Assembly (NCBI GenBank): GCA_905221615.1 | Contig: CAJNDT010000004.1 | Location: 244,597 to 308,596, forward strand | DNA from: Symbiodinium sp. CCMP2592 | Lineage: Eukaryota > Sar > Dinophyceae > Suessiales > Symbiodiniaceae | Length of the DNA: 64,000 nt | Reading direction: 5' to 3' | Part shown: one piece after another, positions 13,141 to 58,902 of the stretch | Layout: every line of letters starts with the position of its first letter | How positions within the stretch are numbered: position 1 is the stretch's first letter | Position numbers and translations under genes: made by a program | Notes under the pieces: generated by a model | Databases searched by the model: none | Seen by the model: the letters and a program-made list of their open reading frames with translations, nothing else | Told to the model about the DNA's origin: nothing

Positions 13141-13190
13141 CTCCGAACCTATATGCCTCGCCTGGTTTGTCCGAGTGTGAGCGCCGAAAC
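13141..13190 (-). repeat. Dispersed motif, copy 1 (sense plus strand)
   Basis: On the plus strand this contains CCTATATGCCTCGCCTGG, TT, then TGTCCGAGTGTGAGCGC. Its reverse complement nearly matches the 21374-21421 copy across about 45 bases. A pyrimidine-rich acceptor-like stretch ending in CCTTCAG follows at 13191-13208, about 25 bases downstream on the plus strand. Confidence 0.85.
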
Positions 13191-13320
13191 CCTTTCCTGT
13201 GCCTTCAGACAAAGTAAAGTCATCCAGTGACACAGGAACGAAGACAGGCATCGCTATGCATTTAACACGCCATGAAAATGCACATAAGTTCGCAGTCCCC
13301 TCCCCCCCCCACCGTTCCCG
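13187..13320 (+). repeat. Copy 2 of the ~134 bp duplicated unit
   Basis: This is the second copy of the 12434-12567 unit. It begins with a polypyrimidine stretch and CAG at 13206-13208, so the unit could act as an exon border. Its frame from 13209 is open through the (TA)n tract but encodes nothing recognisable. Confidence 0.85.
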
Positions 13321-13352
13321 ACCTTTTGCCGTAGTTGTTCCTGAAAATTGCG

Positions 13353-13354
<2 letters not shown>

Positions 13355-13396
<42 letters not shown>
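13355..13396. repeat. (TA)n microsatellite
   Basis: About 21 TA units in an A/T-rich patch that continues to about 13480. Confidence 0.97.
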
Positions 13397-13397
<1 letters not shown>

Positions 13398-13725
13398 TTA
13401 TTCATCTATTTATATATACATAAAGTAGTTATAGTTATATAAGCTTAATTATTTCTGTATTTATTTTATTTCCTAATCCGACACACGCTGTTTCACCCTC
13501 GAAGTTAATGCCAAAGGCACGTCGTTCAGACTTTTCGCCCGCCCGAGCGAAAAGTTCCAATGTCCATGATTATTTCTACATACAGTTTCCAGCCCTTTAC
13601 ATACTTACGCTTACATGCACTTCTTGCATGTCGGAATAAAGAGCAGTATGGCTATTCACAACATCTAGCAGTACGAGCTTGACAGTAAAACACAACCCAC
13701 AAACCCACGTACTCAGGAGACCCCA

Positions 13726-13858
13726 ATCAAAGGGCATAAAGAGGGACCTTAATAACGACCCCTAGGGATAGAACCTTAATATAGCTATTATATACCCATG
13801 ATATAGCCCATTATAAGGTAGGGGTCCCCATTCAGGGTCCCTCCTTTTGCCCTTTGAT
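13726..13858. mobile_element. Foldback (MITE-like) element 1
   Basis: The two ends are inverted copies: ATCAAAGGGCATAAAGAGGG at 13726 and, reverse complemented from 13858, ATCAAAGGGCAAAAGGAGGG. The inverted match continues inward through GACCTT and ACCCCT and then through the A/T-rich middle, so the whole 133 bp can fold on itself. No protein is encoded and no clear target-site duplication is visible. It shares AGGGACC/GGTCCC words with the elements at 18747 and 25507. Confidence 0.75.
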
Positions 13859-16390
13859 AGAAGCCTCGATGAACCCCGAAAGAACTAGCTGAGCTCCGTG
13901 CGGGGCGCCTCCGCAACTGGGGTCTGGCCGTCGGGGCGAATGCCTGGCTTTGGGGGGAAGCTTTGAAGGCTGCAGATTTAAGGTGTGAAGGGTTTGGAAT
14001 TTGGGGTTGCGCTTTGGGGTTTGGGGTTTTGGAGCTTTTCTCGATTCGAGGCGGCTTTGGGGAAATGTGTTGGGCCATAAACCCACAATCCTGAACCCAC
14101 TAAAATACCAAAGCACGCAGGAGGTGGGAAGCTTGGCTCGCCTGTTCTCTCCGCTTTCCCGATCGTGGCTTTGGGGCTCGGACTTTACGGATTTGGGTTC
14201 AGGAATTTTTAGACAACTTCCCGCGGGAAGCAATTTCTCAGCTCTCATCAAGGCTGAGGTTCCTATGGTTCGAAGGTCGCGACTCTCACGACACCTGCCA
14301 TCCTTCTCATAGCCCAGATCATGCTCATCAACAGTCTCAGTTACTCAAAGCTTCGACCAGTGCAGGTGGGGTCTTGCCACCCGGACCTAGCGGGCCCGCA
14401 ACCGTGCAATCCCAAACCGCCGCTGTTGCCTGGCCTCCAGCATATTCCCCGCAGAGTCGCTTGAAAAGGCCTCGGAACTGTGCGACCTGCCAATTAGGCG
14501 GGGGGCTTTCGAGAACCGTGCTTCGGTGCTTCCGAACAGTTCCCCCCCCGCCCCCCGAAGCTCTACTTTCGGGCTGCCTTAAACTGTACTCGCCCTTTGC
14601 CCGCATGCAAACAATTGAAACAACATTCAAGCTGTGAGCCCGGGCCATGCGAGCAGAATCCCGGACAACCTCTGAAGATCTGGCAATGTGTGCTGCTCTC
14701 TTGTGCTGGCGGATTCCGGGCTGCCGGGATGTGATGGTTCTTGTTGCTAGAATACTCTTGGTCTGGGTATCTCGGATTAAGCGGTCTGGCCCCTTCGTGC
14801 GACTATGATTCCAAAATGACCAAGTCAAAGTCCCGAAAGTCCCGTCGTAGCCGAACCCCGCAAGCACAAATCCTCAAACTGCTAGGCTTGTACGCAAGAA
14901 CGGTTGGTACTTAGGACTGTGCTCGCGACAGCGCCCCCAGCTTCTGAGCCCTCAGACCCTGAATCCTTATCGTTAAATCCTAAAGCCGTTAAAACCCTTC
15001 TAAACTCTAGTCTAAACCCTCCAAGCCCGAGAAGCCCTAAAACCGAGGCATAAATTCAGCGCCCGCGGAAGCCTCACCCTTGTTGAACTTGAGCTGATTT
15101 AGCACGTTGTTCTCCTGGCGCAGTGCAAGGCCCTAAACCGTAGGCGGATCTCAGAATGCCTGGCGAAAGCCCGTACGGAAGGTCGGATGGGACTTGAGGG
15201 GCTTCGAGCTTGAGCACTGAATCCCAAAGCGTAGTTCAGCTTCATCCAACTTCGAGTTCGATTGATTCAAGCATCTCGGAGGTTTTGGTCAAGCTCTCCG
15301 GCCGGGATTGGAAGTCTGTGTTTCGGGCGGGAGCAGTGAGGCAGAATGGCACGGTGAGCAGGATTGTGATAGTTGCACGGAACAGTTTGGCAGAAGCTTA
15401 ACTCGTGCTCATGCCGTGAGTACCCGAAGCGTCGTTTTGCAGCCCACATTGCGACGATTGATGACGAATGCCCGCACCACCGAATCCCGGCCTGCAAATC
15501 CTGCAGCATACTGCTCTACACGTCCCTTTCCGTTTCCAGCCTTGATGGTGACCTCACGCAGATGCCTCGACACCAAGCAATGCAGATCATCTAAGCGTCG
15601 CCCTATAGTCTGACGACGGGATATCGGCGGGTCCTATGCTTCCAGGAAGGCATAATTGCTGTCCTATGTTTCTTGCCGCTCTCTTTCTGCGCAAAATTAT
15701 TCGTCTACATATTCGCTGCAGTTTTGTTGGCGAGGCCGAACGCCGATGAGACTGATGATCAGTTAACCAGCCACAGATCTTGCTATTCTTCTCGGGTCCA
15801 CTTCTTCTACTTCTCCTATTGCTGCTCCCGGCTACCTAGACAAAGATCGGGAAAGCTTCCATATCACCAAACCTGGGGCTGAGGAGTGGGTCTCCCCAGC
15901 CTTGCGACCAGCTGTCGCGTGAAGTGAAGCACCGGCATGAAACGAATACCTGGACGGCAACTTACCCATCATGTTTGAGTTTACGGCGGCTCGAGGAGAC
16001 AGAAAAATCGAAGTATGTTAAACTGAATTTTGTAGCTCTGGATTGACTGCAAGGCCTCATAATTCCCATCTCCTGATGATGGCGGAGAGGCACTTCTTAA
16101 AACTCAAGATTTCGCGCTTGGGTTGTTTAAGGCTTGGCAGGAGGGCGACAAAGGACAATCGCAGGGCCGGAACCATCTCTCGTATCCGTGTCACACCTCC
16201 ATACCCGTCGAAACAAGTTTGAGGGCTGAGGCCCGCCATTCATCGGATGTGAAACGAGAACTCGACCGCCGCGTTTGTGGCCAAGCTGCGTGGGCTGTTG
16301 TCGTGACCAGCCTCCTCAGCTGCCAGGAAACTGGATTGGGAGCTTTCTTTCTCCTTCTGAAACAGACGAAGAAGCAGCAACTGCATCAGA
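13859..16390. other. No gene seen
   Basis: G/T-rich at 13980-14050 and C/A-rich at 14930-15060. Open frames at 14337-14867 (minus) and 15210-15613 (plus) are long but lack motifs, splice borders or third-position bias, and other frames are open across them. Confidence 0.5.
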
Positions 16391-16596
16391 AGTAGTGGTA
16401 GCAGTAGTAGCGGTAGAGTAGTGGTAGTAGTGGTAGTAGTGGTAGTAGTGGTAGTAGTGGTAGTAGTGGTAGTAGTGGTAGTAGTGGTAGTAGTGGTAGT
16501 AGTGGTAGTAGTGGTAGTAGTGGTAGTAGTGGTAGTAGTGGTAGTAGTGGTAGTAGTGGCAGTAGTGGCAGGAGTGGGAGTAGTGGCAGTAAGGTA
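16391..16596. repeat. (GTAGTAGTG)n array, about 200 bp
   Basis: A nine-base unit GTAGTAGTG is repeated almost perfectly, degrading at both ends to GCAGTAGTG variants. Frames across it encode only Thr, Tyr-His or Leu-Pro repeats. Confidence 0.95.
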
Positions 16597-16767
16597 GTGG
16601 TGGCTTTTCGACAAGTAGCCATGGAGTTTGGAATGCCGGTTCATTGGAGCGCAACTGAGGCAGACCACGGGTCGAGACAGCTGCCGTCTTTCACCTGAAA
16701 CTAAATCCTGAACTCAAGCCTAACAAGGGACAAGGTCTTAGTATTCTTGAAGCTTGCTTTCGCCGCC

Positions 16768-17190
16768 CGCTACTACGACGACGACTGCTACTGCTACTGC
16801 TCCTGCTTCTGCTCCTGCTCCTGCTCTGCTCCTGCTGCTGCCGCTGCCGCGCCTGCTGCTACTGCTGCTACTGCTGCTGCTACCCCTACCCCTACCCCGA
16901 TCCCACCACTGCCACTGCCACTGCCACTACCACTACCACTACCACTACCTGACTATCACTACCACTACCAGTATCACCGCCAAAGGCACTGCCACTACCG
17001 TTTCCACTGCCACTGCCGCCACTACCACTACCACTACCACTACCACCACTACTACCACTACCACTACGACTACGACGACGACTACTACTACCAATACTGA
17101 GCTACTGCTACTATCGCCACGGCACCACGTAGCGTCTCTGTTATAGTATTGCACTACTGGACTGCTACACTACTACACCACTACTCCTAC
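16768..17190. repeat. CTG/CTA/CAC triplet cluster, opposite strand sense to 16391
   Basis: Imperfect CTGCTA, CTGCTC, CCACTA and CACTAC units run for about 420 bp. The CACTAC part (about 16916-17090) is complementary in type to the GTAGTG units of the upstream array, so the two could pair. Confidence 0.9.
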
Positions 17191-17257
17191 TACTAAAAAC
17201 CCTGGTCGTCATTGCTCCGGCCACGCTCTGATCGCCCCTCCTTGCCACGAGCTGCAC

Positions 17258-17359
17258 CTATATCTAGACTTGCAAGGCCAGCGGCAGCTTCGCTGACACC
17301 AGCCTCTCTGGCAGCTTGACGGGCATTGTTGAGAGACTCGAGAAGCCACATACGCCCGC
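17258..17359 (-). CDS. Candidate exon, alanine-rich hypothetical protein
   Basis: The minus-strand frame reads LESLNNARQAAREAGVSEAA, then AGLASLDI, and the DNA passes to a GTGCAG donor-like site at 17257. Upstream is CTCCCCTGAAG before the first base. Ala and charged residues alternate as in a helix. If no donor is used, the frame runs on to a stop at 17193. No domain is recognised. Composition and both borders make this one of the better candidates, but no transcript evidence exists. Confidence 0.45.
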
Positions 17360-18746
17360 CTTCAGGGGAGCGCAAAATGCGTTCTCAAGCCTTGAGTGAC
17401 CGAGTTGACCTGCAACCACCTACTCCGCATCTTAAGCTCTTCGGCCAACTGACAACGGGCTGCCAAGTCTCTTCTCTATGTCGGTTCCAGGGTAAAAGCT
17501 CTTCGTGAGTTGGGACATGGGTGCTGTCCTTTCTTAAAAGGAGTTGTCACTGGCAGGAAGCTTCAGGCTCGTGAACCGTGACATGAGTGAAAGAGGTAAG
17601 GCGATGTGAAGGTGCCCCCGAAACAACTCGAAGGGAAACTCGTGAGCCTGCTATATTGATCTGAGGCGCGATGATATTTCCCCCGAGGTGCGGCATTGGT
17701 CTTCGCACCGCATTGAAGAGGTTTGCCAAAAAAACGGAGGATTGAACTGTCTTCACTGTAAACCAACCCCTAAACGTCGGGCAGGAGTAATTCAGAAGAT
17801 GTCCTTTTGCCTCCAAACGGTGTGTTAACGAATGCCGCCCCGCCGGTACATGAGGAAGTAGCGCCCGAGGCATACACGGAAGGCTCCGCTGACGTGTCTC
17901 TAGATCGCGCCGTGCGTGGTGGGAAGCATTGTGGCAGTGGCAGTACAAAGGAAGGAAGTAATTTTGCGTGGTGTTCTGCTGATCTCTGGGTGGCCTCTTG
18001 GCGTCTCCTGCTTATCACTGGTCTCGGGGTCGTGGTCTCCTTTCGGTCTCTTGGTCGTCGTGGTCGCGTGGGGGATCTACGCTGGCAGAACCCACGCTTC
18101 GGCGTCCGTGGAGTTTTCGCATGCTCTATATCTGTAAGGGACGGGTCGCACACATGTGGAACTTGAGAGGGTGTGGGGATGCTTGTCAAAAGCAGAACCC
18201 CGAAATCCTAAAGAAGAACCCTTGCACCAGAAAGCCTTTGGTGTGAACGTCCTGCACGTCCTCCATCATGTACCTTGCTGCATTGCTTGCTCACCATAAG
18301 ACATGGATCTGCAGGCTAAGATGGACTACCGCAGGGCTGGCACCTTCGATGAGGCTTCAGGGGTTTATGGCTGAGGGACAACCAACCTCTCCCTGAAATC
18401 CGTACAAGACCGCCTGTGGAAACACAACCCCAAAGCCTTGATCCTGCCGTTGTAGACAGAGGATGACCGTGTAATCCACATCTTGGGAGTCTTCAAACAA
18501 TGTGGGACATAGCTACAATACCCCTAAGAAATCAAAATCACTTACAACGGTTTGCGCAAGAATCCTAGTGCTACTCGCACATTCTGTGGGAATTGAAGGC
18601 TGCCCTGCATTGCAAAGGAAACTTCCTGAGCTTCACCTTCTGCGAGCCACAAGAACTCACGGAGGATGATGGATCCGTCCTCCCAAGTCTATCTCTTTCA
18701 GGATACGCTTGGCGACTGGGCTTACGGGATCTCTCGGAACAAAATT
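17360..18746. other. No confident gene
   Basis: Overlapping open frames lie on both strands at 17547-18189. None shows a motif or clear borders. Confidence 0.5.
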
Positions 18747-18819
18747 TGAGAGTTTCCGAACATAGGGGACCCTGATGTAGTACCCTAAATAAGGTACCCC
18801 TAATTTTCACAAACTCCCA
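18747..18819. mobile_element. Foldback (MITE-like) element 2
   Basis: The left arm TGAGAGTTTCCGAACATAGG (18747) and the reverse complement of the right arm, TGGGAGTTTGTGAAAATTAG, match imperfectly. The centre contains GTACCCTAAATAAGGTACC, itself a palindrome. The right end AATTTTCACAAACTCCCATG resembles the right end of element 3. Confidence 0.6.
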
Positions 18820-19734
18820 TGTGGGAACTCGGCTCGACGCTAGTAGGTACGGGTGAATGCCGTCAAGAGCCCAAGCAGCTGCTGCCTTTGTATGGGAGGA
18901 TGTTGCAAATGAGAACTACCACACCAAGCATGCAGCGAATGGAAACCATTCTGACCTTGTTCCCGAGCCCCTGCCTGGTAAGCGAGTCCTGCTTTGTTGC
19001 AATCTCCTCGTAGCATCTGAGCCCGAGTTCAGAAGAAACCCCCCTCCATCCTGACTTGGGGCCCGAGGCGAGCCGCACCGGAAGGCTCTGTTTTGTTGCA
19101 CACGTAAAAAGCAAAAACGGGAGGCCAGGGTCACACGCCGCGGTCCTGTAGATCGCTTTGCCTTTCGAAGATCTTCTTCAGCATCAAGTACTCTACTTCC
19201 TGATCTGAACGGGCCGTAGGGAGGCTGCCAAGCATTTAAGTCCGAATTTGGTCGATACTTGAGGGTTTGAAAGTTCAAAACTTTCACCCCCTACTATCCC
19301 AATAAACTTAAAAACTAAACCACGCTGAACCCTCACGCCCTGAACCCTGAAATTAAGGAGCGAACTCTAAAAACAGAGAAGAAGTCCGCCGCAGGGTTTG
19401 GGCCATGGAGTTCAGAACCGAATCTTAGAGTCCTACGTGAGACCCACACACCAGGCCTTGAAGCTTGCATACTTCCGGCTCTCGAGTGGGATCTGCTTAC
19501 GCAGGTTCTCCTCACAACAACGGCGATATGATGTTAGGGTTGAAGGGCTCTTTTAAAAGCCGAGTGGTTGGGGTTGAACATGGTTGAACTAGGGTTTGAG
19601 GAACCAGCCACAGACCCAATCGGGGGTGAGATATCCAGCTGGCCTGTAGCATAAGACTAAGAACAAGCCAGAGAACCACTAAGGTTGATCCCAAAGCCCT
19701 TCGTTTCAGATGAAGACATCGCAGCGCCAGAACC
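18820..19734. other. Weak exon-like frame, otherwise empty
   Basis: A plus-strand frame from about 18857 reads RAQAAAAFVWEDVANENYHT and reaches a GTAAGC donor-like site at 18978. It is short and lacks a convincing acceptor. Positions 19290-19380 are C/A-rich. Confidence 0.35.
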
Positions 19735-19815
19735 AAATCCCCGTCCGCCAGTGTCGCGAAGGCGTCGAAGTCGCCTGCAGCGGCGTTGATCTCCTCCGCT
19801 TGTGCTTCTGCCTCG
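19735..19815 (-). CDS. Candidate exon fragment, acidic/alanine-rich
   Basis: The minus-strand frame reads EAEAQAEEINAAAGDF then DAFATLADGDL, with most third codon positions G or C. The upstream TGA at 19818-19820 means translation must enter by splicing, perhaps at CGAG|GCAG. A GTTCTG follows the end. The frame stays open to 19512 but composition changes to a hydrophobic, repeat-like type. No family is recognised. Confidence 0.35.
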
Positions 19816-20078
19816 GTTCAGGGCTGAGGTGCAAAGCGGTTAAGGTTCATGCTTGCGTCCGTGGCTGGGGCGTTCCCTAGTTTCGGGACATTTGGCGCTC
19901 GCCGTGACAATGGGGCTTCAGGGCCAGGGCGTACCTCGCGCTTGCCCGGCTAAGTCAGCTTAGAGAATTCTTCAATGCCCTCTCTGACTGGTTCTCCCTG
20001 AGGTCAGCCAGAGTCTCTCTCTTTGTCTCTTTTCGCCCACACAGGCAAGAGGAGCAGCCGGATTACCCCTCCGCACGC
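19816..20078. other. No gene seen
   Basis: Unique sequence without coding signal. Confidence 0.5.
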
Positions 20079-21328: not shown

Positions 21329-21373
21329 CTGCGAAGTTGTGTCTACTGGTTTGGGTTTAGGCAGGGTTTCAGG

Positions 21374-21421
21374 TTTCGGCGTTCACACTCGGACAATCCA
21401 AGCGAGGCATGTAGTTCGAGG
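21374..21421 (+). repeat. Dispersed motif, copy 2 (sense minus strand)
   Basis: Reads TTTCGGCGTTCACACTCGG, ACAATCCAAGCGAGG, CATGTAG, TTCGAGG on the plus strand. It is near-identical to the reverse complement of 13141-13190. Confidence 0.85.
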
Positions 21422-21790
21422 TCTGTTGAGTGAGACGGATCTAGTGGGAATGGCTTGAAATCATTCAGTTTACGGTTTCGGCGCTTCAGGTTTTACGTCC
21501 CTTTTCTGTCCCGCAAGATCCGGGAAGCGGTTATTGCGCTGGACGTAGACCAGAGCCTTTGCAGCATTCAATTGGCTCGAGAGGTCTGTACCACCCTGAC
21601 CCCGACACATGGAAAGCTTGGGTGGCAAACATGACGCGACCAAAAGACAAATCGACAAAGCAAACTCCATAGTAGCCGAAGCTTCACAGGGACCTCTTCT
21701 CGCACTGTGGGTCGTTCCTGCTCTCTAGCACATTGCGTAGCGGGGAAGAAAAGCCCCGACCTCAACCTGAAGTGTAGGATGACAAGACTG
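21422..21790. other. Region downstream of the spliced-leader relic
   Basis: On the minus strand, downstream of the leader relic, the first sizeable ATG frame starts at 21670 with MEFALSICLLVASCL, resembling a signal peptide, and stops at 21470 after 66 codons. If the leader relic marks a retroposed mRNA, this may be part of the copied message. No family is recognised. Confidence 0.35.
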
Positions 21791-25470: not shown

Positions 25471-25514
25471 TACGCTCTCACAACTCGGACAAGCCAGGCG
25501 AGGTTCCATATAGG
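25471..25514 (+). repeat. Dispersed motif, copy 3 (sense minus strand)
   Basis: Reads TACGCTCTCACAACTCGGAC, AAGCCAGGCGAGG, TTCCATATAGG on the plus strand. The last bases overlap the left arm of foldback element 3. It shares CTGGTTTGGGTTTA upstream with copy 2. Confidence 0.8.
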
Positions 25515-25617
25515 TGGTTGTCAAAATTAGGGTCCCTTTTGGGGTACCTTAATTAATAGGTGCCGTATTATGATCGGGACCCAAAAAGGGACCCTAATTT
25601 TGACAACCACCCACATG
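25507..25617. mobile_element. Foldback (MITE-like) element 3
   Basis: Left arm GGTGGTTGTCAAAATTAGGG then TCCCTTTT (from 25513). The right arm, reverse complemented from 25612, reads GGTGGTTGTCAAAATTAGGG then TCCCTTTT, a perfect match of about 28 bases. Outer bases CATATA and CATGTG also pair partly. The loop is about 40 bp. The near-perfect arms suggest a younger insertion than elements 1 and 2. Confidence 0.85.
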
Positions 25618-33432: not shown

Positions 33433-33460
33433 GTTTCGTCGCTCACACTCGGACAAGTCA
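33433..33460 (+). repeat. Dispersed motif, copy 4 (sense minus strand)
   Basis: Reads GTTTCGTCGCTCACACTCGG, ACAAGTCA on the plus strand. The GCGAGG half is lost after this point. Confidence 0.75.
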
Positions 33461-35883
33461 TGTTTTTGGAGTTTCGGGTTGAGAACTGAAGGTTGTTTTG
33501 GACATCTTTGGATTTTGGCGCTCACGCTGCCTCCGGGCCGCTCGAGGTTGTGGGCTTAGTATGGGGGCCCAAACTTGCGACTGTGGCGCACCTGTACATT
33601 TGGGCCGGATCGGATTCAGAACGGAAGAGAAATCACACGCAGCGGCAGTTCTCAACTATTCTCGGGCACGTTCAGGGCTTCGGGGTGCAAGACTTCTGAG
33701 CGTGTCTCTGATCTTACGGTTTTTACTGCTCGAATGTCTCAACAAAGTTGACGGGTCCAAGCTTCAGTCTGGGGCTTATGATGTGGAGCTTCAGGCCTGC
33801 GGGGTGGTGAAGTCGGCGCTTTGCGACTTGAAACATCACGGTTTCTGAAACCAAACTGCCATCGGCCATCACTTCACGCTCGAGACATAAGAACATCAAA
33901 GTTTCAAGGAATGAGACGGACCGGCACAACTCGGGCGCATGCTGGACGACAGTTCGGTGTGCTTCCCAGCTTTGAAGCATTTTTCGCTTCACAAGCCTAG
34001 CACGGGAGAATACAAAGCGCAAGCGAGCGAACACGAATGTCTGCAAAGCGCGATTCTTGTTACGAAGGAACTCTCGAATGACTACAGCATCGATGAAGCA
34101 GGTTAGGGGCCCGAGGTGGCAAAGAGCCCGAACGGCAAACGAGAACATGAACAGCAAGAAAGCTCGGCCAATGAAAAGGGAGGCCAATGGCAAAAACAAC
34201 GTCCCTTCCGACAACGGTGAAAAATTCGAGGAGCCTCACACAACGCCATTCCTAAGCCGTAAAGCTCAAGGCACGTGGAAGTCCAGCGACGGGTAGCCAC
34301 TGACATCGTCGGCCGCTTCTCTGACCTGACGGTAAAGTAAGGAGCTCAAAGTGTTTAGGACTTTACCTTTCTCTTGCTACTGGACTCAAGACTCAAGTCT
34401 AGCCAGTCTACGGACTTTACCTTGAAACTCAAACCCAAAATCATACCCGATCTGGGATCCTTAAGGGGCCCCTTGCATGAGCGACCCTTCCCCATCTTCT
34501 ATACATTAAGGCTGAACCGTAGAGGACCAGGCACGCCTGTTGAGGCTTCTGCTCAAGCCTGCCTCTTTTCGGACCCCAACTATGCCTGTGGCAAAACCCA
34601 AGGCTCTGTTGAAGGATGTGCCGGACTCAGTACTTGGTTCAAGCTTCAGGATTTTGTGCTCTCGGCTGCTTCATGGATTTAAGAAGCAAAGGGCTGGGTG
34701 CAGTGGCCGTAAGACACTTCGGAACGACACTTCGGGCGAAGCGCCTGGCTGCTAATCCTCCTGGTGACTTTGGTACAAGACAAGGAGAGTCTGAAGGACT
34801 CATGTGGGCTTTGAGCCTTCAAGATGTACTCCTGCACCTTAAACCCTCAACGTTAAGCCTCGCGCCCACAACCCCAGTAGGACTGAAGCGCCGCTGAGTT
34901 TGCCCGCCGGGAATCCTCAACCCTTGGATAGGGACCTCCCAACCCTTCCTTCTTCCGCGGCCTGATGCGACACCCGCAGCCCTACGTGAACCCTATTCTG
35001 AAACACGTGCTGGCACAGAGTTGGTGCTTTGTGCTTCGGTCTGAACTGACGGAAGGCGGAGGGATTTTGGCATAGGGTGCAACTGAATTTTGGAGCTTGC
35101 CTGAAGTCTACTGATCGCAACAGAATTGCGGGTTGCAGCGGCGACAATTGTCAAAGCACGAAGAGCAAGAGCACCATCAAACATCAATGGGGACCCTCTG
35201 CATTTGAGCAGAGCTTCTCTGCCACTGCTGCCGCTCTTACTTCGTAAATAAGGCTTCAAGGCCAACAACCCCTACATCGCACCCTCAACGCCAACAACCC
35301 TGACTCTGAACCCCATCTTCAACCCAAACCGCCAACAGCAAAACACAAAGCTTAAACCCTCAACCCTCAATCGTGCAATCCCGTTACCTGAACTAAAGTT
35401 TACTTACATCGTAATGGAAATATCCTGACCTCAAAACACTACTTCTTAAACCACAATCCGTAAACATAAACCCTGAATTTGCAACCCTCAAGCGCGAACC
35501 CCAAATGTTAAAAAGCCTTTAACCTAAATCTTCCCCTCCTGCCCTTTTTTGCAGCAGGCCTTGCCCTAAAACCGAGGCCGTAAAACCCCCCATGTTCGAC
35601 GAGCGAGCACCTTGGATTCATCCACAGTGAGGAAGCCCAGATAAAGGAAGATCATCAGCAGGCTATCCTGGCAGGAAGGTCAACGCCATTTCGGTGGTGT
35701 TGGGTTTGCGATTCGTTTGCATTTTCTCCGCCATGCTGTACGAGGTGCCAGGAAGGGTTACATTTTTTCCACTGCATTGGGAATGACTTGCTCCAAAAGG
35801 AGCCTTGATAGGCACACAAACTGTCATTTTGGTTCTGGTTTTCGGGGATGTGGGTCTGGGGTGCAGGATTAGCGTTGTGTGTT
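33461..35883. other. No confident gene
   Basis: A 163-codon minus frame (33723-34214) is hydrophobic and motif-free. 35240-35560 is C/A-rich with AACCCTCAAC words. Confidence 0.45.
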
Positions 35884-38977: not shown

Positions 38978-38999
38978 TTTCAGCACACTCGGACTTGCT
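38978..38999 (+). repeat. Dispersed motif, copy 5 (short form)
   Basis: Reads TTTCAGCACACTCGGACTTG. TTCAGCACACTCGGACT is shared with the copy at 58881-58902 on the other strand. Confidence 0.65.
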
Positions 39000-43385: not shown

Positions 43386-43432
43386 TACGCTCTCACACTC
43401 GGACTCCGCCAGGCGAGGTTCGCAGGTCGGCT
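43386..43432 (+). repeat. Dispersed motif, copy 6 (sense minus strand)
   Basis: Reads TACGCTCTCACACTCGGAC, TCCGCCAGGCGAGG, TTCGCAGG on the plus strand. Confidence 0.8.
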
Positions 43433-43496
43433 TGGTGAAACAAAAGAGTGCATACAACTGTTAAGACTGTTAGGATTACAAGGCTCCCAAGCTTGG

Positions 43497-44574: not shown

Positions 44575-46300
44575 AAGGAGCTACGCCTTCGGAAGGACCA
44601 TAAGCTTGCATAGCAGGAAAAGCTGTCTTCCGCTTGGCCCCGCAGGGACGTTCGCTCGCTCGCAAGTTAAACATCTTGGCACCTGCTTCGATTTCAAGCT
44701 TCCCCGCACCGCTCAATGCCTATTCTTGCTAGGGGTTTCAGTGCTCATACCTTCTGCCCCGGAGCCCAGTCCGCCCGGGGCGCCCAATCTGCCCGCATGT
44801 GAACTGCACATCTTCTGGCGAGCATTGCTTCGTCATGAATGCACCCTAAACCTCACCACCCGAAGCCGTCAAGCCCTGCAGAACAGGATCCCTCAACCCC
44901 TAACCTGGAACCTGCACACGTGAACCCTGAAGAGCAACAGTCTCAAGCCTTAAGGCGCTGAGATCTCTCAAAGCCCCTAAAACCTCAGCAGCCCAAAGGC
45001 CCAGCAGCACCCCCAGAAGCCCCACGCCGGGTTTCGCCACCCAACTTCACGCACGAAGCCCGAAAACTCCAACACCCCACTATCTCTTCAAATGGCCCTC
45101 TTAACCACAAAACCTAAACCCTTGAACCAAACCACTCAACTCAGTCTTAAACGGGTGAAACCCAAACTCCAAAATCTGGGCTTTGGAAGCTGGAGCTCGT
45201 TCATGCGCCAGGAACTGGCACACAGGAAAAGACAACTCCTCCAAACCCGACACCCCAAATTCCAAACCCTGCGCCCTAAACCCGTCACGACAAATCCAAC
45301 ACCCCCAAACCCTAAAACCCCTAACTCCAAATCCTAGTTAAGCCTCAACCTCAACACCCTAAACCCTAAAAGCCTGAGAACCCTCAAACCCAAGCAACCT
45401 GCTCGCGTCAGAGGTGGGGCTTTCGTCGGGCCAAGCCTATCCAGGTCCGAAGCTTTCCAGCTCGAGGGGATTATTAAAGATTAGTTCGTTGTAGGGCTTC
45501 TTCAGGCTCTAGTGCTTTCAGGTTTAGGGCTTTTGGGTGTTTCGCTCTTGACGGATGTGGATTATGGGAAAGTCGGCACGCTGGTTTTGGACGACTTCAA
45601 GATGCATTGTCTCTGAAACTAAGGTTTTGTGGTTGGGGGTTTGGGTTTCCATGTCAGCTCTGAGGTTCAGGTCTACAGTGTGGGCTGCATAGATTTGGAA
45701 GGGTGACGTTCGATTGAGTCTTTCGGTCTGGAGCACTTCAGCTTGCGGGGTTAAACGGTCGAAAAGCTCGCTTAGTCGTGCTGGCTCCGGGGTGAGGTTT
45801 CCCCCGCGGAGGTTTGTCTGCGACGTTTTAGGCCCCAAGAAGTCGGTGAGGACTACCGACCGGTCTGCACATATCTGCCCCGATTTCCTGGCTGATTCAG
45901 TTTGATTCATCTTGAAGCCTTAACCTCGAACCCCATAGCCAAGAATAAAGTCCAAACCTCAAGCCCAAAAGTCCAAAACACTGCCTGTCAAGCCCCTAGC
46001 CGGAGTGCTTTTGACTTTGGAATTCATGTTCACATCATGGACCGACATCTTCTTCTGACAGCTGGGGTCCCGAAGTTGAGCTGAAAGGCTTTGGGATCTG
46101 GCCGTGGCAGCTTGCGAAAGCCTTTACGTGCGGTTTGCAACCCCGTTACGTCTATCGCTGACGAAGCCCTCTAAGATGCAGAACCGGCCTGTGGTTGGCT
46201 GCCTTTGCTCCGGGACCGGGAGTCGCAGCTTTTGAGCTTCACCTCCCAGGCTTGATGACTTGATAGATGCTCCTAGGATTACCATGAATGTTGCTCTGGC
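44575..46300. other. No gene seen; strong composition switch
   Basis: 44820-45400 is C/A-rich with CCCTAAA words, including ACCCTAAACCCTAAA at about 45356. From 45480 to 45850 it is G/T-rich with GGTTTAGGG words. The switch is centred near 45440. Confidence 0.55.
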
Positions 46301-46530
46301 TGCTGCGAGTAGAACAAGCACCAGTACTCGCACGAGTCTCTGGTAACTAGTACTACCACTGGACCAGTGCTAGCCCTGGCACTAGCACTGGTGGTAGTAG
46401 TAGAAGAAGTAGTAGTAGTAGTAGTAGTAGTGCTACCACTACTACCATCACTACTACCACTACTACCACTACTACTGCTGCTGCTGCTGCTGCTACTACT
46501 ACTACTACTACTACTACTACGAGGAGGCCG
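46301..46530. repeat. Inverted GTA/CTA triplet repeats, hairpin-forming
   Basis: ACTACCACTGGACCAGTGCTAG near 46350 pairs with CTAGCACTGGTGGTAGT near 46382. Directly after, (GTA)n at about 46391-46430 is followed by (CTA)n-type units at 46435-46519. The arms are complementary in type, so one or two long stems are possible. Confidence 0.82.
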
Positions 46531-50260: not shown

Positions 50261-50294
50261 TTACGCTCACAACTCTGACAAACCAGATGAAGTC
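50261..50294 (+). repeat. Dispersed motif, copy 7 (sense minus strand)
   Basis: Reads TTACGCTCACAACTCTGACA, AACCAGATGAAGTC. It is diverged in the second half. Confidence 0.6.
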
Positions 50295-50576
50295 TTGGAG
50301 CCTTTAGGCTTCCGAGCTTTGAGGTGAGGAGTTTGGGCGTATGGAAGAGGCGAGGCATATGGTTCGTGGCCTGATGAGATAGTGAAACATTCTACTAAGA
50401 GCCTCACAGACAAAAGCAAAGAGGGACCCTACAAGACTAGTGACTAGAACCTGCCTATAGAATGCAAGGCCATGCTCTGACTGAGATCGTATGTCGAACA
50501 TGATGTGCCAGTTAAAGATCTGAGCCGCTACAGACAAGGCAAAGGGTTGAAGCTAAATCAGACGGAGAGGCCAATA
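50295..50576. other. No gene seen
   Basis: Short overlapping frames only. Confidence 0.5.
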
Positions 50577-51013: not shown

Positions 51014-51074
51014 CAGCAACTGTTGAGACAACGACGAGTCGACCTGTGTCACACCGGCCCCCACCGCCATGTGA

Positions 51075-51373: not shown

Positions 51374-51418
51374 GTAAGAAGGCGGGGCTTGTGCACCAGC
51401 TCGTTCTCGATCCCTCAG

Positions 51419-52289: not shown

Positions 52290-52860
52290 TGGCAAAGTTT
52301 TTTGCTGTTGTTGCCCCCGGTGCTTGTTTTTGTTGCTGTCGTTGCGGGGAACAGGTTTTTGCTTGTTGCATGTTTCCCCTCCTACTTAGCAAGGACCGCA
52401 TTGCAGGATACTTCAGAGACCTGTTGACTACAGCCTCAGGTTTCGAAGCTTTGTTGCTCGTTGCGGGGTGTGCTTTGTTTTGTTGCTGTCGTTGCGGGGA
52501 AGGGGGGAGCGTTTTTTTGCTGTCGCTGCGCGTCCCTGATTCTGAGCGGCAACAACACCGAAAACACGCTCGCCCCTTCCCGGGTGCCCCTCCCCCCTCC
52601 CCCCGCTGGGCAACGACAGCAAAAGAAAACGAGCTCCCCGCAACGACAGCAAAAAAGTTAACCCCTCCCCCCCTCGACGACAGCAAAAAACAACTCTTAC
52701 CGTCCCCGGAGCACTTTTTTTTCTGTCGTTGTGGGGATCCGTCATGTTTGTTGCTGACACTGCGGGGGCGTGATGTTTTTTCTGTTGTGACGGGGATGGG
52801 TTCACTCCTTCACTGGCTTCCAGGGTCCGCGCAAAAACAGCAAAAAGCGACTACAACAAA
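52290..52860. repeat. Two-orientation cluster of TTGCTGTCGTTGCGGGG units
   Basis: The word TTGCTGTCGTTGCGGGGA or close variants occurs in forward sense at about 52334, 52484, 52516, 52718 and 52748. It occurs in reverse sense (CCCCGCAACGACAGCAA) at about 52605, 52637 and 52675, with diverged forms to 52855. Units are joined by poly-T or poly-A and short C/G-rich spacers. The facing groups can fold into long hairpins. Two frames, one per strand, are open through most of the cluster but encode only Cys/Phe-rich or Gly/Arg-rich repeats. Confidence 0.85.
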
Positions 52861-53328
52861 AAACACACGATCCCATGTTGCAACGCACATACGCGCATGA
52901 ACAAGAGTTGGCATGAGTCCGACTTGTCCTTCTCAGGTGAACACCAGGCCAGTGTTTGAGTCTATTGCTCATGAAAAGGGACCTTGTGCGTCGCCCGACC
53001 CTGAACTGACCAATGCAGTGCTGGTTGTGGCGGCTTTCACCGTGGAAGGCAAGGTTCACAAAAACGTCACGACCTTGCCCCTACATACCTAGTCAAATGA
53101 AATCAACAGGGGCAAGACCGGGGTCCCGGCATTGACTGGCAGTCGATGAAACCATTTTTCTTGTCCTTCGGCTGCAGCCAAGACCACATATCTTGTGGCA
53201 GGTGTGCAAGGCTTCAAGATGTTCAGGCTTTGCCACTAGCGCCTCCTTGGCCTTCCATGCATTGGGGCTTGCAGCAGTCAGCGAAGTGAACATTTAGGAA
53301 GCCAGCTTGGGCGATCGGCTGAAGGGAC
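52861..53328. other. No gene seen
   Basis: Unique sequence between two repeat clusters. Confidence 0.5.
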
Positions 53329-53481
53329 GAGGAAGGAGCACGAGGAGGAGGAGGAGGAAGGAGAGGGAGGAGGAGCGAGGAGGAGGGAGGAGGGAGGAGG
53401 GACGAGAAGGGGAGGGACCGGAGGGAGGAGGAGGGGGAGGGACCGAAGGGATGAGGAGCTTTCCGGAGGAGGAAGGAGGAG
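53329..53481. repeat. Polypurine GGA/GAGG tract
   Basis: About 150 bases almost wholly purine on the plus strand, with GAGGAGG and GGGAGG units, partly mirror-symmetric. Confidence 0.95.
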
Positions 53482-53739
53482 GTTAGAAATGCTCCTTCAC
53501 TCTCTTTCAGTCTGTCTGTGTGTGTTTGTGTGACCACTCGTTTCCGTGTGTTTGCACGCACATACTAAACACACACATTGCTACTTCCCAGGCGCCGGGC
53601 CGGATTGAAACTCCGAACGACGCCGGTGTGGACCCTGGGTGCACGAAAGAGTTCGGTTTTGCGAACAGACACAGAACGGTGAGTTTCCAAGCTGGCAAAA
53701 GCCCAAAAGTGCTGACTCCGCCATCACCTTCTGGTTGTA
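53482..53739. other. Spacer
   Basis: Short stretch between the polypurine tract and the triplet array. No gene. Confidence 0.5.
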
Positions 53740-53976
53740 ATGGTAGTGGTGGTGGTAATGGTGGTGGTAGTGGTACTCCTCGTTGCAGCAATCGGAGGCG
53801 TAGTCGCAGCTTTAGTCCCAGCCGTGATCGTCGTCGTCGTCGTAGCAGCAGTCGCAGTAGCAGTAGCAGTAGCAGTCGCAGTCGCAGTGGCAGTGGCAGT
53901 GGTAGTGGTAGTGGTAGTGGAAGTGGTAGTCGTAGTAGTAGTCGTAGTAGTAGTCGTAGTAGTAGTCGTAGTAGTG

Positions 53977-54011
<35 letters not shown>

Positions 54012-54117
54012 ATTTGTAGTAGTAGTAGTAGTAGTAGTAGTAGCAGTAAAACAATGTCGTAGTAGTAGCAGTAGTAGTAGTAGTAGTAGTAAAACAATAA
54101 GAATTAGAGTAGTAGTC

Positions 54118-54157
<40 letters not shown>

Positions 54158-54270
54158 TAGTGGTAGGAGTAGGAGTAACATAGCCGTAGCCGTGGCCGTA
54201 GCCGTAGCAGCAGCAGCAATGGCAGTAGCAGTCGTCGTAGTAGTCCTCGTCGCGGCATCGGCAGGGGCAG
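53740..54270. repeat. GTA/GTC/GTG imperfect triplet array, ~530 bp
   Basis: GTAGTC, GTAGTG and GCAGTA units in runs. All frames stay open but encode low-complexity Val, Ser-Arg, Thr or Tyr runs, so none is called as a gene. Confidence 0.95.
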
Positions 54271-54283
54271 TGGCGGTGGCAAT

Positions 54284-54299
54284 TGCACACACGCACACA

Positions 54300-54355
<56 letters not shown>

Positions 54356-54426
54356 CGAAGCACACACGCACGCACGCAAGCACGCACGCACGGACGCACG
54401 GACGCACGCACGCACGCACACGCACC

Positions 54427-54481
<55 letters not shown>
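54284..54481. repeat. (GCAC)n followed by (CA)n
   Basis: GCAC units fill about 54290-54424 with a break near 54357, then (CA)n runs from about 54429 to 54480. Confidence 0.97.
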
Positions 54482-54484
<3 letters not shown>

Positions 54485-55461
54485 AACAAACAAATCCGCT
54501 CTTCGGTCGCTTCGGGGCCACAAAGCCGAACTCTCACAACAGCGATAGCGAGGAGCAAGAAGAAGTACAAATCAAGGACTCACAGACAACAACACTGAGG
54601 CAGTCTAGCGAAGTCTTCACCTCTGGACCTCTGCACAAACCCTCGAAGTTCAGGGCTCCCGTGCGGCTCCCCGGACTGTATCCTGTCTGCCGGAGATAAC
54701 CTTGGGCCTGGGCACGCTTCCTGTCTCTACTTGTATATGCATGCACGTGTATATATATATATATATGGAGGTATAGATGTAGATACATAGATCTAAATGC
54801 AGATATAGATATAGATTTAGGGGTTTGTATGTATAAACGTTTGATTGAAAAGCATACTTACTATTTGCACGTATTTGTTTTTGAAATCAGGAATATGGAT
54901 ATGTACGTTTTCCTATTCATGGTTGTTTCGATTTCTAATTTTGGTCATATCACTACCTATTCATCTGCCAAAAAAGGTATCTGGACAGACAGGCATATGC
55001 TTCAAAAGGATTCTTTCTTGTTCAGGAATGGCCATTTCATCTTGTGCGGACGACTGCACGAATGTCATCTATTCAGACGGCCGGTGTCTCATTCGGGTGG
55101 TCTTTGGGTGTCTCCAAGTACTGAATGGGCGGTTTGAACAGAACCTCACCATTCAGCGTATTCTAAAGGTGGCCGTGTTGCACTGTCAAGCACTCTTCCC
55201 TCTGCACTGCCATTGCCATCCGATGGATCATGCCCAATCGTTCCCCCACCGCAAAACTTAGTGATTCGCGAAAACATACCATCGTGCCCAACTTTTTCCA
55301 AGCTCAGCACCTCAGCTGGCCTTTTTCAGCCATTTTGCAGCAGGCAAGATGACGCGGCTGCGGCCAGTCTCTGGTACAAAGGGTGGGTCAAGCAAGCCCT
55401 ACATGCCCGCCACTCCGTCTGCCGCGAAACTGCCGTCGTGCAGTTGTCGCTGGCATCAGTT
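54482..55461. other. Downstream flank of the insertase gene
   Basis: (TA)n at 54749-54766 and GATA-like units at 54770-54825. The rest is unique and A/T-richer. It contains the 3' side of the minus-strand insertase gene. No AATAAA-type signal stands out. Confidence 0.5.
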
Positions 55462-56430
55462 TCAGTGTCCACATGCTGCACGTTTCCAGTTTTGGCGCTT
55501 CTTCCAGCTCATGCTAGGCTTTGGTGGCACCCAACAGTATTTGCGGTAGTACCATGTAATCCCTGCCGTGTAAAAGCCGTTGGTTGCGATGAACAGGAAA
55601 GTAGCCGCAGGCAAGCTGCTTGCGGTCCACGGCACCCAGGTGAGCAGTGCTCCCCTCATGACCATCCTAAAATACTCCGCAGTATCCTCCTGACCCGGCT
55701 GGGGCGGGTTGGCATTGAGCTCAGCGTTCGCCAGCAGTGCCAATGCAGAGAGACACGGCAGTACCCCATAGGGGTCTGGAAGCACCAAAGAATCCAGCCA
55801 CAGGCTAGGTGATGTCACAAAGCTTCGGAAGGAGTCAGGGTGGTTCATGATACCATAAAGGGCCCCGAAATATGTCAGACCAATGGGAAGTACGACACCG
55901 ACTTGGTAACCTAGGCCTTGCACTGGGTGGAAGCCCGTCTCTTGTGTGAATGCCTGAAAGCGTTCCGTGGCTTTCTGCAAGTCGGCTTCAGCTTTCTCAG
56001 CCTTCGCCGCGCCTGCCGCCCCGCCGAGTGTGCTTTCGCCGCCGAGGCCACCCCTCCGTGCCTGTGCCTCGCTGTAAGACTTCGCGAGCTCCATGTACAC
56101 AGGCATTAACACCAAGGCATCACAGCGGCGCCTGAGTGATGTAAGGTTCCAGGGTGCAGTAACCAGGCGCGTGAGCAGCGCTGCAGCCACCACGGCAGCA
56201 CCAGCATCGCCGGTGGCTGAATGCAGAAGCAGAAGGCTTTGCTGTAGCACATCCATCAGCAGCCATGGCTGGTAGAGGTCAAGCGGGTTCGCACCTGCAT
56301 CCGCTGCTGCCGCACGCAAAGCACGGAGGACCTCTTCCTCTGCTCCCGTGCGAGGTGCAGCTGCGAAACCACGCTGGAAGCCCCACAGCCGTAGAGCCCT
56401 GCTCAGAGGCCGACTCCGACTTAGTGACAT
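55462..56430 (-). CDS. Mitochondrial Oxa1/YidC/Cox18-type membrane insertase
   Basis: A 322-residue protein of the YidC/Oxa1 family, which inserts membrane proteins, here probably into the mitochondrial inner membrane. Residues 1-26 (MSLSRSRPLSRALRLWGFQR, then GFAAAP) are Arg-rich without acids and end in an RGF-A type cleavage site, a good presequence. Membrane segments are seen at about 74-95, 172-194, 212-237 and 258-294. The family's conserved block is WLDSLVLPDPYGVLP (211-225), and NLTSLRRRC (95-103) follows the first segment. An Ala/Lys/Glu helix (140-165) replaces the usual loop. The frame opens at 56526, but that codon is GTG; the first ATG is at 56430. Length fits Cox18/Oxa1 proteins. 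No intron breaks the frame. Whether it is Cox18 or Oxa1 is not resolved. Confidence 0.88.
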   Translation of the reverse strand: MSLSRSRPLSRALRLWGFQRGFAAAPRTGAEEEVLRALRAAAADAGANPLDLYQPWLLMDVLQQSLLLLHSATGDAGAAVVAAALLTRLVTAPWNLTSLRRRCDALVLMPVYMELAKSYSEAQARRGGLGGESTLGGAAGAAKAEKAEADLQKATERFQAFTQETGFHPVQGLGYQVGVVLPIGLTYFGALYGIMNHPDSFRSFVTSPSLWLDSLVLPDPYGVLPCLSALALLANAELNANPPQPGQEDTAEYFRMVMRGALLTWVPWTASSLPAATFLFIATNGFYTAGITWYYRKYCWVPPKPSMSWKKRQNWKRAACGH

Positions 56431-56471
56431 AGAAATGGGCGGCAGGGGTGCAGCGACTTCAAGTGTCTGCC

Positions 56472-56480
56472 AGCCAAAAT
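56472..56480 (-). other. Possible spliced-leader remnant upstream of the insertase
   Basis: The minus strand reads ATTTTGGCT, nine bases identical to the middle of the dinoflagellate leader, about 42 bases upstream of the ATG. Flanking bases do not match, so this is suggestive only. Confidence 0.25.
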
Positions 56481-56526
56481 TTGCAGTTGAATCCAAGGAT
56501 TGGAGGACAAAAGAATCGTCAGACAC

Positions 56527-58880
56527 GAGCTCAACTTCGCTCTATTATGGCCCTTTTTGACACTGCCCTAATACCATAACACCTTTCCCAATCCAGCCCA
56601 TGCAGATTACCTCTGGCGTCCCGGCGCTTGCCCTTCTCGCCGCCTTTGTTCACGGGCGGAGGTGGCTGCTGGATGCCTCCAGGTTTTGCGCTCTAGCCCA
56701 GAGATGGCTCCGTGCTAGGCAGATCAGGATTTTGACGGGACCCCTTCCGGGGTCCAGGATCAGAACATCCTCCTGGAGTTTGAGGCCGGTCATACAAAAA
56801 AGAACAGACCAAACAAACTCCATGCAAAACCCATGGAAACAGCATGCTCTCTCAAACAGCCCACCGTATACACTAAACAACCCGAAACTACTCCCAGGAC
56901 CCCTCCTAACAATTGAATTCTACCAGCTACACCCCTTGAACGATGAAAGCCTAAAACCCCAAGACCACCCGGTGCAGGACTTCTGGAGTCTGGGCTTGAT
57001 GCAGGGTGCTGGGCTTAGAAAGTCAGACCTGGGGTTTGGGGCCAGGTTTGCGGTTCGGTATCTGGAGATTTTGGTGGGAAGGTTGCGGATCTAAGGTGTA
57101 GGGCTCCGGACCCAAGATCAAAGCAACAAATGTCGACTCAGAGAGACCGGAGCTGCTTCACGATGGGCCTTCCAAGCCTCATTCTACCCTTTCCTAAACG
57201 AATCAAGCCGTGGAGGAGTTAACGAGACCGTCCACGGCTTGCAACCCTAAACCCAGAGCCCAGAGCAACAGACACCAAGCTCCGATTCTGTAGATTCTGT
57301 ACATCCATGAAGGGAGTTACCAACCCCCACAACCCAACATCCCCAAACAAAAAATGCCTGAGCCGGAGGCAGCCATCAAACCTTCAATCCTCGAAACACT
57401 GAGCCTCGAGAACCTAAACCCATCTAAACCCTGAATGGCAAACAACGGACACTTTTCTATTCTAATTTCTCTTCTAAACCGACACCCATACACTAAACCA
57501 TAACTTTGAAGAACGGACCCTGCGAAACCCCAAAGTCTAAACCGAGCCTGCTGGCGGGGCTCCCTTGAAGCCGGAGCTAGGGGGGCCCTTCTTGCCGCCG
57601 AATCCTCCCGTACATATCAAAAGATCGAAGGCCTCTAGGGTTCGAGTTTTAGACTTGGGGGGCGGCGGGTGCACAACACGATACTTCTTGACATGAAGGG
57701 TCTCCTCACAGCAGCCCATTTGCTGAGACGTTGGGGTACACCCACGACTCACGACTGCAACAAGTTTTTGGCTCCGTCCTCCTGTAGTACTGACACAAAA
57801 GGCCATAACAACGCCTGCCAATCGCATCCGAAACACGAAACAGCCCGACCGTCTATGCTAGGACTGTTCTGTTCTTACTAACCGTAAATTGATGACGACT
57901 GCTCTTGAGGGGCGAAATGTCCACGAACACACGCTGGGTCCGGTGGGGGTGGGGTCCATGTCTTGTTTCTTGTATCCCTAGCTCAGGCCCGAGGGGCAGG
58001 AAGAACTGCAGCTTCCAAGGTAGAACTTAGAGAATTTCGGCTCGGGGCGCATGGACCTAAAGCGGATAAAGACTTCAAGAAGAAACTCCAAAGCCTGGAC
58101 CCCGGGTGCGCTACGCAGCCCTGAAGCTCGTGCCACATTTCGCGCCTTTCGCGTCGAATCTGTCGGCTATTTGGCCTTGGCCCTTGAAGCCCACGGGTTG
58201 CCTGACAAGCTTCGGGCTAGGCATAGGTGGGCTTACCGGTTTGGGGCTGAAGTGTCTTAGCACAACGATACGGCGGACGCACTCGTCTTGCAATCTCAAT
58301 GCTATTAACAATCTCACTCCTGCTGCGACTCTAACAACTGGGACAAGTTGAGGGAGGCGTCTGAGCAACCATGGTCGAACGGTAGTGGCTGGCCTCTGGG
58401 TAGCGCCAAATGCGGCGCTGTGCCTCGTGGATATCGGCAGGGATATCGATACCGGGGCTTTATTAATCCTTCTAGTTATGGTAGCACGCAACAGAAAGTC
58501 CGCTCATCTGGAACAAGACTGCCTCGGAAACGCTACTCGCGAAGCGTTTGCTTACAAACTGTACGCCAGGACGAATTCAAGCAACGCGAATACAAGTTTG
58601 GGAAAACACTGGAAAGAGTGTCGAGCATTGCCGTGACCGTACCTTTGACAATGGTGTTGTCACCGCGATCGTTGGCCCACTCGCGAATGACCGCCGCACT
58701 CCCACCCCTACCGCAGCGGATTCCGCAGGCTTCCAGTCTGCAGGGGCTCCGCGGGTGTCCCGTGCGCCCCCCGCCCCCGGCAGTGTTGGGAACTCTTCAT
58801 CCGCCCTCCCAAGGATCAAAGACCTTTGCCCCACAGCATCACCAATCGGCATGCTGCTGTTCAACTGATGTGGTAGATTG
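56527..58880. other. Upstream flank of the insertase; no confident gene
   Basis: 57000-57095 is G/T-rich and 57240-57540 C/A-rich. Frames at 58348-58917 (plus) and 58577-59191 (minus) are long but overlap and lack motifs. Confidence 0.45.
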
Positions 58881-58902
58881 TCAGTCCGAGTGTGCTGAAT
58901 TG
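58881..58902 (-). repeat. Dispersed motif, short form (sense plus strand)
   Basis: The plus strand reads GTCAGTCCGAGTGTGCTGAA. It matches the reverse complement of the 38978-38999 copy over 17 bases. Confidence 0.65.

Follow-up and report, generated by a model that had tools for sequence, protein, structure and literature searches.

Dispersed 45-nt motif in a Symbiodinium contig as the probable 3′ terminus of a LINE-type retrotransposon oriented with its gene surroundings

Occurrence of the motif in the window

A stretch of 64,000 nucleotides (nt) from Symbiodinium sp. CCMP2592 (contig CAJNDT010000004.1, positions 244,597–308,596 of the forward strand), referred to here as the window, contained a dispersed motif that a first-pass annotation had read as an introner-like element or a splicing-related signal near intron 3′ ends. 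The motif is very probably the last ~45 nt, that is, the 3′ terminus, of a long interspersed nuclear element (LINE), a retrotransposon without long terminal repeats (non-LTR), of this peridinin dinoflagellate. Copies of it near marker genes lay almost always on the strand of the genes.

The core 11-mer, CACACTCGGAC, occurred exactly six times in the window, at 13169 (minus), 21384 (plus), 33444 (plus), 38984 (plus), 43394 (plus), and 58884 (minus), compared with 0.04 occurrences expected. These strands are those of CACACTCGGAC, and the sense strand of the element is the opposite one. The six exact copies and the description of the motif as ~45 bp long were as the first-pass annotation had given them. 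When up to two mismatches were allowed, 29 cores were found against 16.9 ± 4.3 expected, a number reached in 2 of 100 shuffles. Since this excess was only modest, most altered copies of the core alone, of which about ten had been proposed, were attributed to chance. A profile of the whole element was built from genome copies, and its threshold was set at 6.8 bits, the highest score reached by any of 20 shuffled windows. Seven copies in the window exceeded this maximum, six of them on the minus strand (Table 1). The exact cores at 38984 (5.7 bits) and 58884 (4.9 bits) were indistinguishable from chance by the profile, and the copy at 58881, one of the six named earlier, is therefore unsupported.

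The likeness of the best copy to the long copies described below extended over 82 nt, from 13105 to 13186 (sampled as L031). Direct repeats at 12468–12556 and 13220–13307, about 752 nt apart and 91% alike, adjoin this fragment and may mark a local duplication.

Table 1. Positions of LINE fragments and of a protein-coding frame in the window
Feature	Positions	Strand	Support
LINE 3′-end fragment, best copy, followed by AAACCC	13133..13186	+	51.9 bits (profile); 44/44 identities by definition (served as query)
LINE 3′-end fragment	21377..21430	-	48.3 bits; 39/44 identities
LINE 3′-end fragment, variant with end GAGAGCGTAAAC	25473..25529	-	27.4 bits
Short LINE 3′-end fragment, upstream half unrecognisable	33437..33477	-	18.3 bits; 28/44 identities
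LINE 3′-end fragment, variant	43388..43439	-	17.6 bits; exact core at 43394
Degenerate fragment, upstream half of element end	50348..50378	-	14.5 bits
Degenerate terminus fragment	50263..50300	-	8.5 bits (shuffle maximum 6.8)
Probable degenerate LINE 3′-end fragment	8030..8086 (match at 8067)	-	31/44 identities vs 23 best in one shuffle; 6.5 bits, under 6.8
Oxa1/YidC-like membrane insertase open frame, uninterrupted over matched part	55462..56541	-	PF02096 E 2e-6, 28.4 bits (Pfam cut-off 35)

Identification of the LINE

The genome (1.098 Gb) had 143 matches to peridinin-chlorophyll protein (PCP), a family absent from all 14 control genomes (those identified being prokaryotes), and this, together with its long one-strand gene arrays, is the mark of a peridinin dinoflagellate. 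It contained 2061 matches to the pattern CACACTCGGACAA, compared with 25 for the reversed-pattern control. The 26-mer CCTCGCCTGGNNTGTCCGAGTGTGAG gave 870 matches and its reversed control none, and the genome-wide search that had been recommended earlier thus bore out a dispersed repeat. At most about 100–150 places were listed from the larger totals of the genome searches, and for families these were mostly the best-scoring ones.

When two loci on contigs C2 and C4 were compared, they shared 1.53 kb upstream of the motif at 94% identity, and the likeness ended at the end of the motif. In longer fetched stretches, 8.07 kb were shared at 95.8%. The long C2 copy encoded a reverse transcriptase (RVT_1, PF00078, E 7.4e-23, 81.8 bits), preceded by an Exo_endo_phos match in a partial frame (2.2e-4; at 21.5 bits it fell below the cut-off, 24.5). 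It was composed of a 573-amino-acid (aa) frame, an 1175-aa frame with the endonuclease-like part and the reverse transcriptase, a stretch of some 5 kb containing five more open frames, and, after the last of these, a 3′ region of about 1.1 kb. The five frames (338, 224, 174, 198, and 388 aa; positions 3445–7307 of L043, C2:1401300–1411299) had no Pfam match above the cut-off. For the 388-aa frame, neither Pfam at E 0.5 nor the PDB sequences at E 10 gave a match; it may resemble a 2-oxoglutarate oxygenase. The only match of the 573-aa frame was PF25764 at E 0.1, and none was to a methyltransferase.

A 1.4-kb query from the 3′ region gave 21 matches, nine of which covered its whole length at 86–100%. 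All ten loci that were cut out, the nine full-length ones and one partial one, ended in ...TGTCCGAGTGTGAGCGCCG|AAA (GCGCCG|AAA) and then diverged. Because these loci shared an exact end and the long copy carried a reverse transcriptase, the motif was identified as the 3′ terminus of the LINE.

The Symbiodinium LINEs described in PMC5890265 (SymbioLINE and relatives) likewise have a reverse-transcriptase open reading frame (ORF) and an upstream ORF, in a LINE-rich dinoflagellate genome. They differ from the present element in that SymbioLINE-Dnmt carries a DNA methyltransferase in ORF1, a domain without a match in the 573-aa frame, and in the ~5 kb of additional open frames after the reverse transcriptase found here. 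LINEs make up 13.36% of the S. microadriaticum genome according to PMC8110479.

Short copies and target-site duplications

In 33 of 35 distinct sampled copies, the likeness to the LINE end covered only 20–82 nt; the other two were long copies. The 26-mer by which most copies were found set a floor of 31 nt and no ceiling, and copies under 31 nt were therefore under-counted. The 3′ flank began with AAACC in 23 of the 35. A duplication was scored when 13 or all of the 14 bases that follow the 3′ end recurred within 140 nt upstream, and mispaired flanks served as the control. Such a repeated flank was found in 10 of 35 copies, compared with 47 of 1188 mispaired flanks (4%). The duplications of L002, L008, L021, L027, and L035 were clear, as were that of L019, at 12 of 14 bases, and that of the tandem copy L007. 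The readable edges were target-site duplications of 12–15 nt, and the 5′ end was not conserved: with L007 left out, the pieces inserted between clear duplications measured about 25, 70, 34, 79, 39, and 87 nt.

Target-primed reverse transcription leaves copies that share a fixed 3′ end, differ in their 5′ ends, and are flanked by a duplication beginning at the endonuclease site. Human L1 elements insert in this way, with 5′ truncation and with duplications starting at the endonuclease site, and the copies described here resembled them in these features. TRAS and SART are LINEs that target telomere repeats. The AAACC(C) target of the present element likewise resembles a telomere repeat, whereas its copies lay inside gene arrays, also at single AAACC sites. 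The dinoflagellate telomere repeat is TTTAGGG (PMC11453091), on the other strand relative to AAACC(C).

Telomere-like CCCTAAA runs were scattered within gene arrays, in the window at 12377–12597 and 45250–45370 as well as in sampled loci. They may offer targets to the LINE and may grow with each duplication. AAACCC occurred 88 times on the plus strand and 58 times on the minus strand of the window. At C1:191593–191665 (L012/L013), two LINE tails lay 47 nt apart, apparently as a nested insertion of one tail into the AAACC junction of the other.

Orientation relative to genes

The strand of each copy was compared with that of neighbouring copies and of marker genes. The neighbour pairs were drawn from the 100 listed places of CACACTCGGACAA and 58 of the 100 listed for CCTCGCCTGGNNTGTCCGAGTGTGAG (C47 onward). 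The gene comparisons included 63 of the 100 listed CCTCGCCTGGNNTGTCCGAGTGTGAG places, as the first 37 mostly duplicated those of CACACTCGGACAA; the new places C4:201017, C7:313508, and C20:46193 were omitted. Two further genome searches contributed 75 of 87 and 91 of 98 places after removal of repeats, and the 1.4-kb query contributed 19 of its 21 matches, two second pieces being dropped. The markers (426 rows) were ion channel, kinase, DnaJ, and PCP genes. Because the 143 PCP matches form tandem arrays, only 15 of them were used. Many PCP matches lay in one-strand arrays on contigs C1035 and C722, and those listed on C1035, every one of them on the minus strand, spanned nearly 1 Mb.

In 111 of 114 pairs of neighbouring listed copies no more than 1 Mb apart, both copies were on one strand, and the plus-strand copy of the window was involved in two of the three exceptions. 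Among the 329 places listed, 37 had a marker gene within 100 kb, and 36 of these were on the strand of the gene, the exception again being the plus-strand copy of the window. Within 300 kb, 62 of 66 copies agreed. As several copies shared one gene, the comparison was also made between each gene cluster and its nearest copy, which gave 24 of 24 when the limit was 100 kb and 33 of 36 when it was 300 kb. Marker genes within 100 kb of each other had the same strand in 62 of 67 cases; array ends should therefore cause some disagreement over longer distances. The strand check suggested by the first-pass annotation for splice sites thus gave a very strong bias, but one relative to genes, and such a bias is also possible for a LINE without any role in splicing.

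Among the 19 places of the 1.4-kb query, 12 had a gene or another copy within 300 kb and all 12 agreed with it; for the nine long copies, the eight with such a reference point were on the common strand. RVT_1 reverse transcriptases lay on the strand of the gene in 12 of 12 cases within 100 kb, and in 16 of 17 when copies were added as reference. In contrast, integrase-type elements (Copia reverse transcriptases and integrases, 300 places listed) agreed in 6 of 12 cases with genes only at 100 kb and in 6 of 16 with copies added. Fisher p values, which are descriptive because the rows are partly dependent, were 0.0004 for copies against integrase-type elements and 0.014 for RVT_1 against integrase-type elements (genes only, 100 kb), the latter becoming 0.06 at 300 kb. 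A strand-biased supply of targets was considered as the cause of the orientation and rejected: away from the copies, AAACCC showed almost no strand preference, with 230 occurrences on one strand and 207 on the other across 35 loci, some of which overlap, and therefore does not explain it. The element belongs to an ordinary class, and its orientation pattern is extraordinary.

The accessible parts of PMC5890265, for SymbioLINE, and of PMC8110479, for S. microadriaticum, mention no strand relation between LINEs and genes, and no gene-strand-locked LINE of a dinoflagellate was found among the titles listed by literature searches, whose coverage leaves out most subscription papers. The nearest precedent is the Leishmania SIDER family (PMC2689281), whose members, as far as described there, are also short degenerate LINE-related fragments in unidirectional gene clusters with an excess of sense copies. 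The SIDER excess is about 4-fold, with sense copies in 3′ untranslated regions and an antisense excess in spacers, compared with 36 of 37 near marker genes here, in a genome with introns and with fragments down to about 25 nt. For human L1 in genes, a bias against the sense orientation is described, partly through transcription-coupled repair (PMC5717806); the bias found here is the reverse and nearly complete.

Copies and intron ends

The AG-bordered open segments downstream of the motif, on which the proposed link to acceptors had been built, are present and uninformative. Of random window positions, 71–96%, depending on the open length required, had such an AG-bordered segment no more than 55 nt away, and the six segments named earlier therefore carry no signal. 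A strict acceptor was defined as AG|G after at least seven pyrimidines of ten, the usual consensus. By this measure, the distances at four of the six named sites (36, 37, 43, and 90 nt) did not exceed the lower quartile for random positions (quartiles 90, 214, and 427 nt), one of the four being the unsupported 58881. The distances of 35 genome copies were at chance compared with random positions in the same loci: nine were in the lowest quartile, 21 were below the median, and four had a strict acceptor within 50 nt, compared with 15.5% of random positions.

One copy was placed in an intron. The locus L056 (C4224:634501–643500) contained two ion-channel genes in tandem. An intron interrupts one of them, and the other, possibly a retrocopy, was open throughout the fetched part. 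Protein alignment of the two neighbours showed the intron to be 1973 nt long and of the GC-AG type, its acceptor being AG|G; GC-AG and GA-AG introns are common in Symbiodiniaceae (PMC11453091). The LINE fragment lay inside this intron in sense orientation, with 581 nt between it and the acceptor downstream. To that extent the earlier picture of a dispersed, mobile-element-like repeat of a eukaryote that has a sense strand and can be intronic was correct. A second candidate, L057, was rejected. Because its copy lay about 950 nt beyond the apparent C-terminus of a kinase (judged by eye), an intron was indistinguishable from the 3′ flank.

Proposed mechanism and alternative explanations

The strand counts are best explained by retroposition that is locked to gene direction, and as to the cause of this lock the balance is about even. 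In the mechanism proposed here, the LINE RNA would end in ...CCTCGCCTGGATTGTCCGAGTGTGAGCGCCG and would be recognised by the element's machinery, the endonuclease would nick sites that are mostly AAACC on the strand destined to carry the copy, and the GG(G)TTT 3′ end exposed there would prime reverse transcription. In most cases synthesis would halt after a few tens to about 100 nt and leave micro-copies flanked by a 12–15-nt duplication that starts with AAACC. According to the model of target-primed reverse transcription, a sense copy would require the first nick on the template strand. Transcription, or a replication fork that moves with it, might favour one strand for the nick or for the completed insertion, so that orientation would be fixed at insertion and not by later selection. 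Copies would then almost always read the same way as the unidirectional gene array around them, and sense-strand copies would be found in introns without any role in splicing.

We tentatively suggest on this basis, with about as much doubt as belief, that target-primed retrotransposition is mechanically tied to array direction, that LINE insertions of any length are almost exclusively gene-sense and those of integrase-type elements are not, and that the micro-fossils form a strand record. If this is correct, they would record genome-wide the past direction of gene arrays. Transcription and replication of unidirectional gene arrays are poorly known in dinoflagellates. With a retroposon locked to gene direction, the strand of an array and the points at which it switches could be read from the copies, and a test could be made of whether transcription or replication guides nicking and priming. 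The motif also illustrates that a LINE tail can mimic an intron signal.

Several observations weigh against these readings. The plus-strand copy at 13133..13186 is the sole supported copy of the window opposite in strand to the local genes. In the long C2 copy no duplication was found and the 5′ end was not located, and a 3′ hairpin was modest for the last 39 nt (z −1.8) and not apparent in three longer pieces (z −0.3 to −0.5). The extents of 20–82 nt measure likeness to one subfamily and are thus lower bounds of insert length; some copies were alike further upstream, for example L004 and L008 over 268 nt at 75%, each with a second core. No duplication was detected at the 13-of-14 level in 25 of 35 copies, as would be expected, if not proved, for old copies. 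Four of the ten duplicated copies (L006, L016, L017, and L039) were weak and lay in AAACCC-repeat context, against the 4% false background. A single intron was verified, by homology. On the strand side, the counts came from listed matches and the places are not random samples; the reference points of the long copies were mostly other family copies and not genes; RVT_1 agreement fell to 14 of 18 at 300 kb, and the RVT_1 matches are probably mostly of LINE type and were not shown to be LINEs; and the integrase-type control was small (12 or 16 placed, two of which are one duplicated segment).

An introner, that is, a transposable element that inserts into exons, becomes an intron, and supplies its splice sites, is highly improbable as the identity of the motif. 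Introners are known in dinoflagellates (PMC9860276, PMC11453091), where, as here, mobile repeats lie in introns (PMC9860276, PMC7789003), and the copies described here are sense-oriented. However, an introner as described there is a complete intron bounded by its own splice sites and in many cases carries inverted repeats, and those of Symbiodinium microadriaticum have 4-bp duplications and terminal inverted repeats (PMC9860276). The copies here have 12–15-nt duplications, a variable 5′ end in place of a fixed one, inserts of ~25–87 nt where the duplication is clear, and the 3′ end of a LINE, in flanks that were AAACCC-rich and, by eye, non-coding. The one verified copy is a fragment deep within an existing intron, and its edges are not splice sites. 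Neither the 3–9-bp duplications nor the inverted repeats typical of introners were found, with no separate search for inverted repeats. A splicing-related signal near 3′ acceptors, the other proposal of the first-pass annotation, is just as improbable. It would agree with the intronic copy on the gene strand and with the short acceptor distances of four named sites, but the 35 genome copies lay at chance distance, the verified copy lay 581 nt from its acceptor, the AG-bordered segments were as near at most random positions, and the near site at 58881 was not a supported copy.

The remaining two alternatives accept the LINE and concern the source of its micro-copies and the cause of their orientation. 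The micro-copies could derive from a separate short RNA, a short interspersed nuclear element (SINE) with the 3′ tail of the LINE and moved by it, in place of truncated LINE RNA. This would agree with the 33 of 35 copies under 83 nt, with the mere nine long copies of the subfamily, and with the several upstream variants, but the six copies with clear duplications began at ~25, 34, 39, 70, 79, and 87 nt from the end without a common start, and a SINE is quite unlikely. More serious as a rival, if still unlikely, is strand-random insertion followed by selection that purges antisense copies from transcribed regions. The reverse complement of the element contains AG|G strings that, read from the sequence, could act as cryptic acceptors, and both selection and repair are discussed for human L1 in PMC5717806. 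On the other side, most sampled copies measured only tens of nucleotides. Two further points weigh weakly against selection, namely that the long copies (86–100% over 1.4 kb) with a reference within 300 kb, eight of nine, were all on the common strand, and that antisense integrase-type elements occur in such arrays. Insertion fixed in direction by the array is kept as the tentative explanation beside this rival.

Other features of the window

The insertase-like frame at 55462..56541 shows the minus strand to be coding in that block. Two DnaJ matches were found on the minus strand 17 kb to the left of the window, at C4:226966 (8.5e-4) and C4:227178 (6.6e-8). A spliced-leader relic and a known RNA family were considered and rejected: the DinoSL string, in its commonly known form, was absent from the window, and no Rfam match in the window reached the gathering score. 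Long GTA/CTA-like trinucleotide arrays in opposite orientation, together with a CACG/CA microsatellite, occupied positions 16403–17112, 46381–46520, 53721–54047, and 54285–54490.

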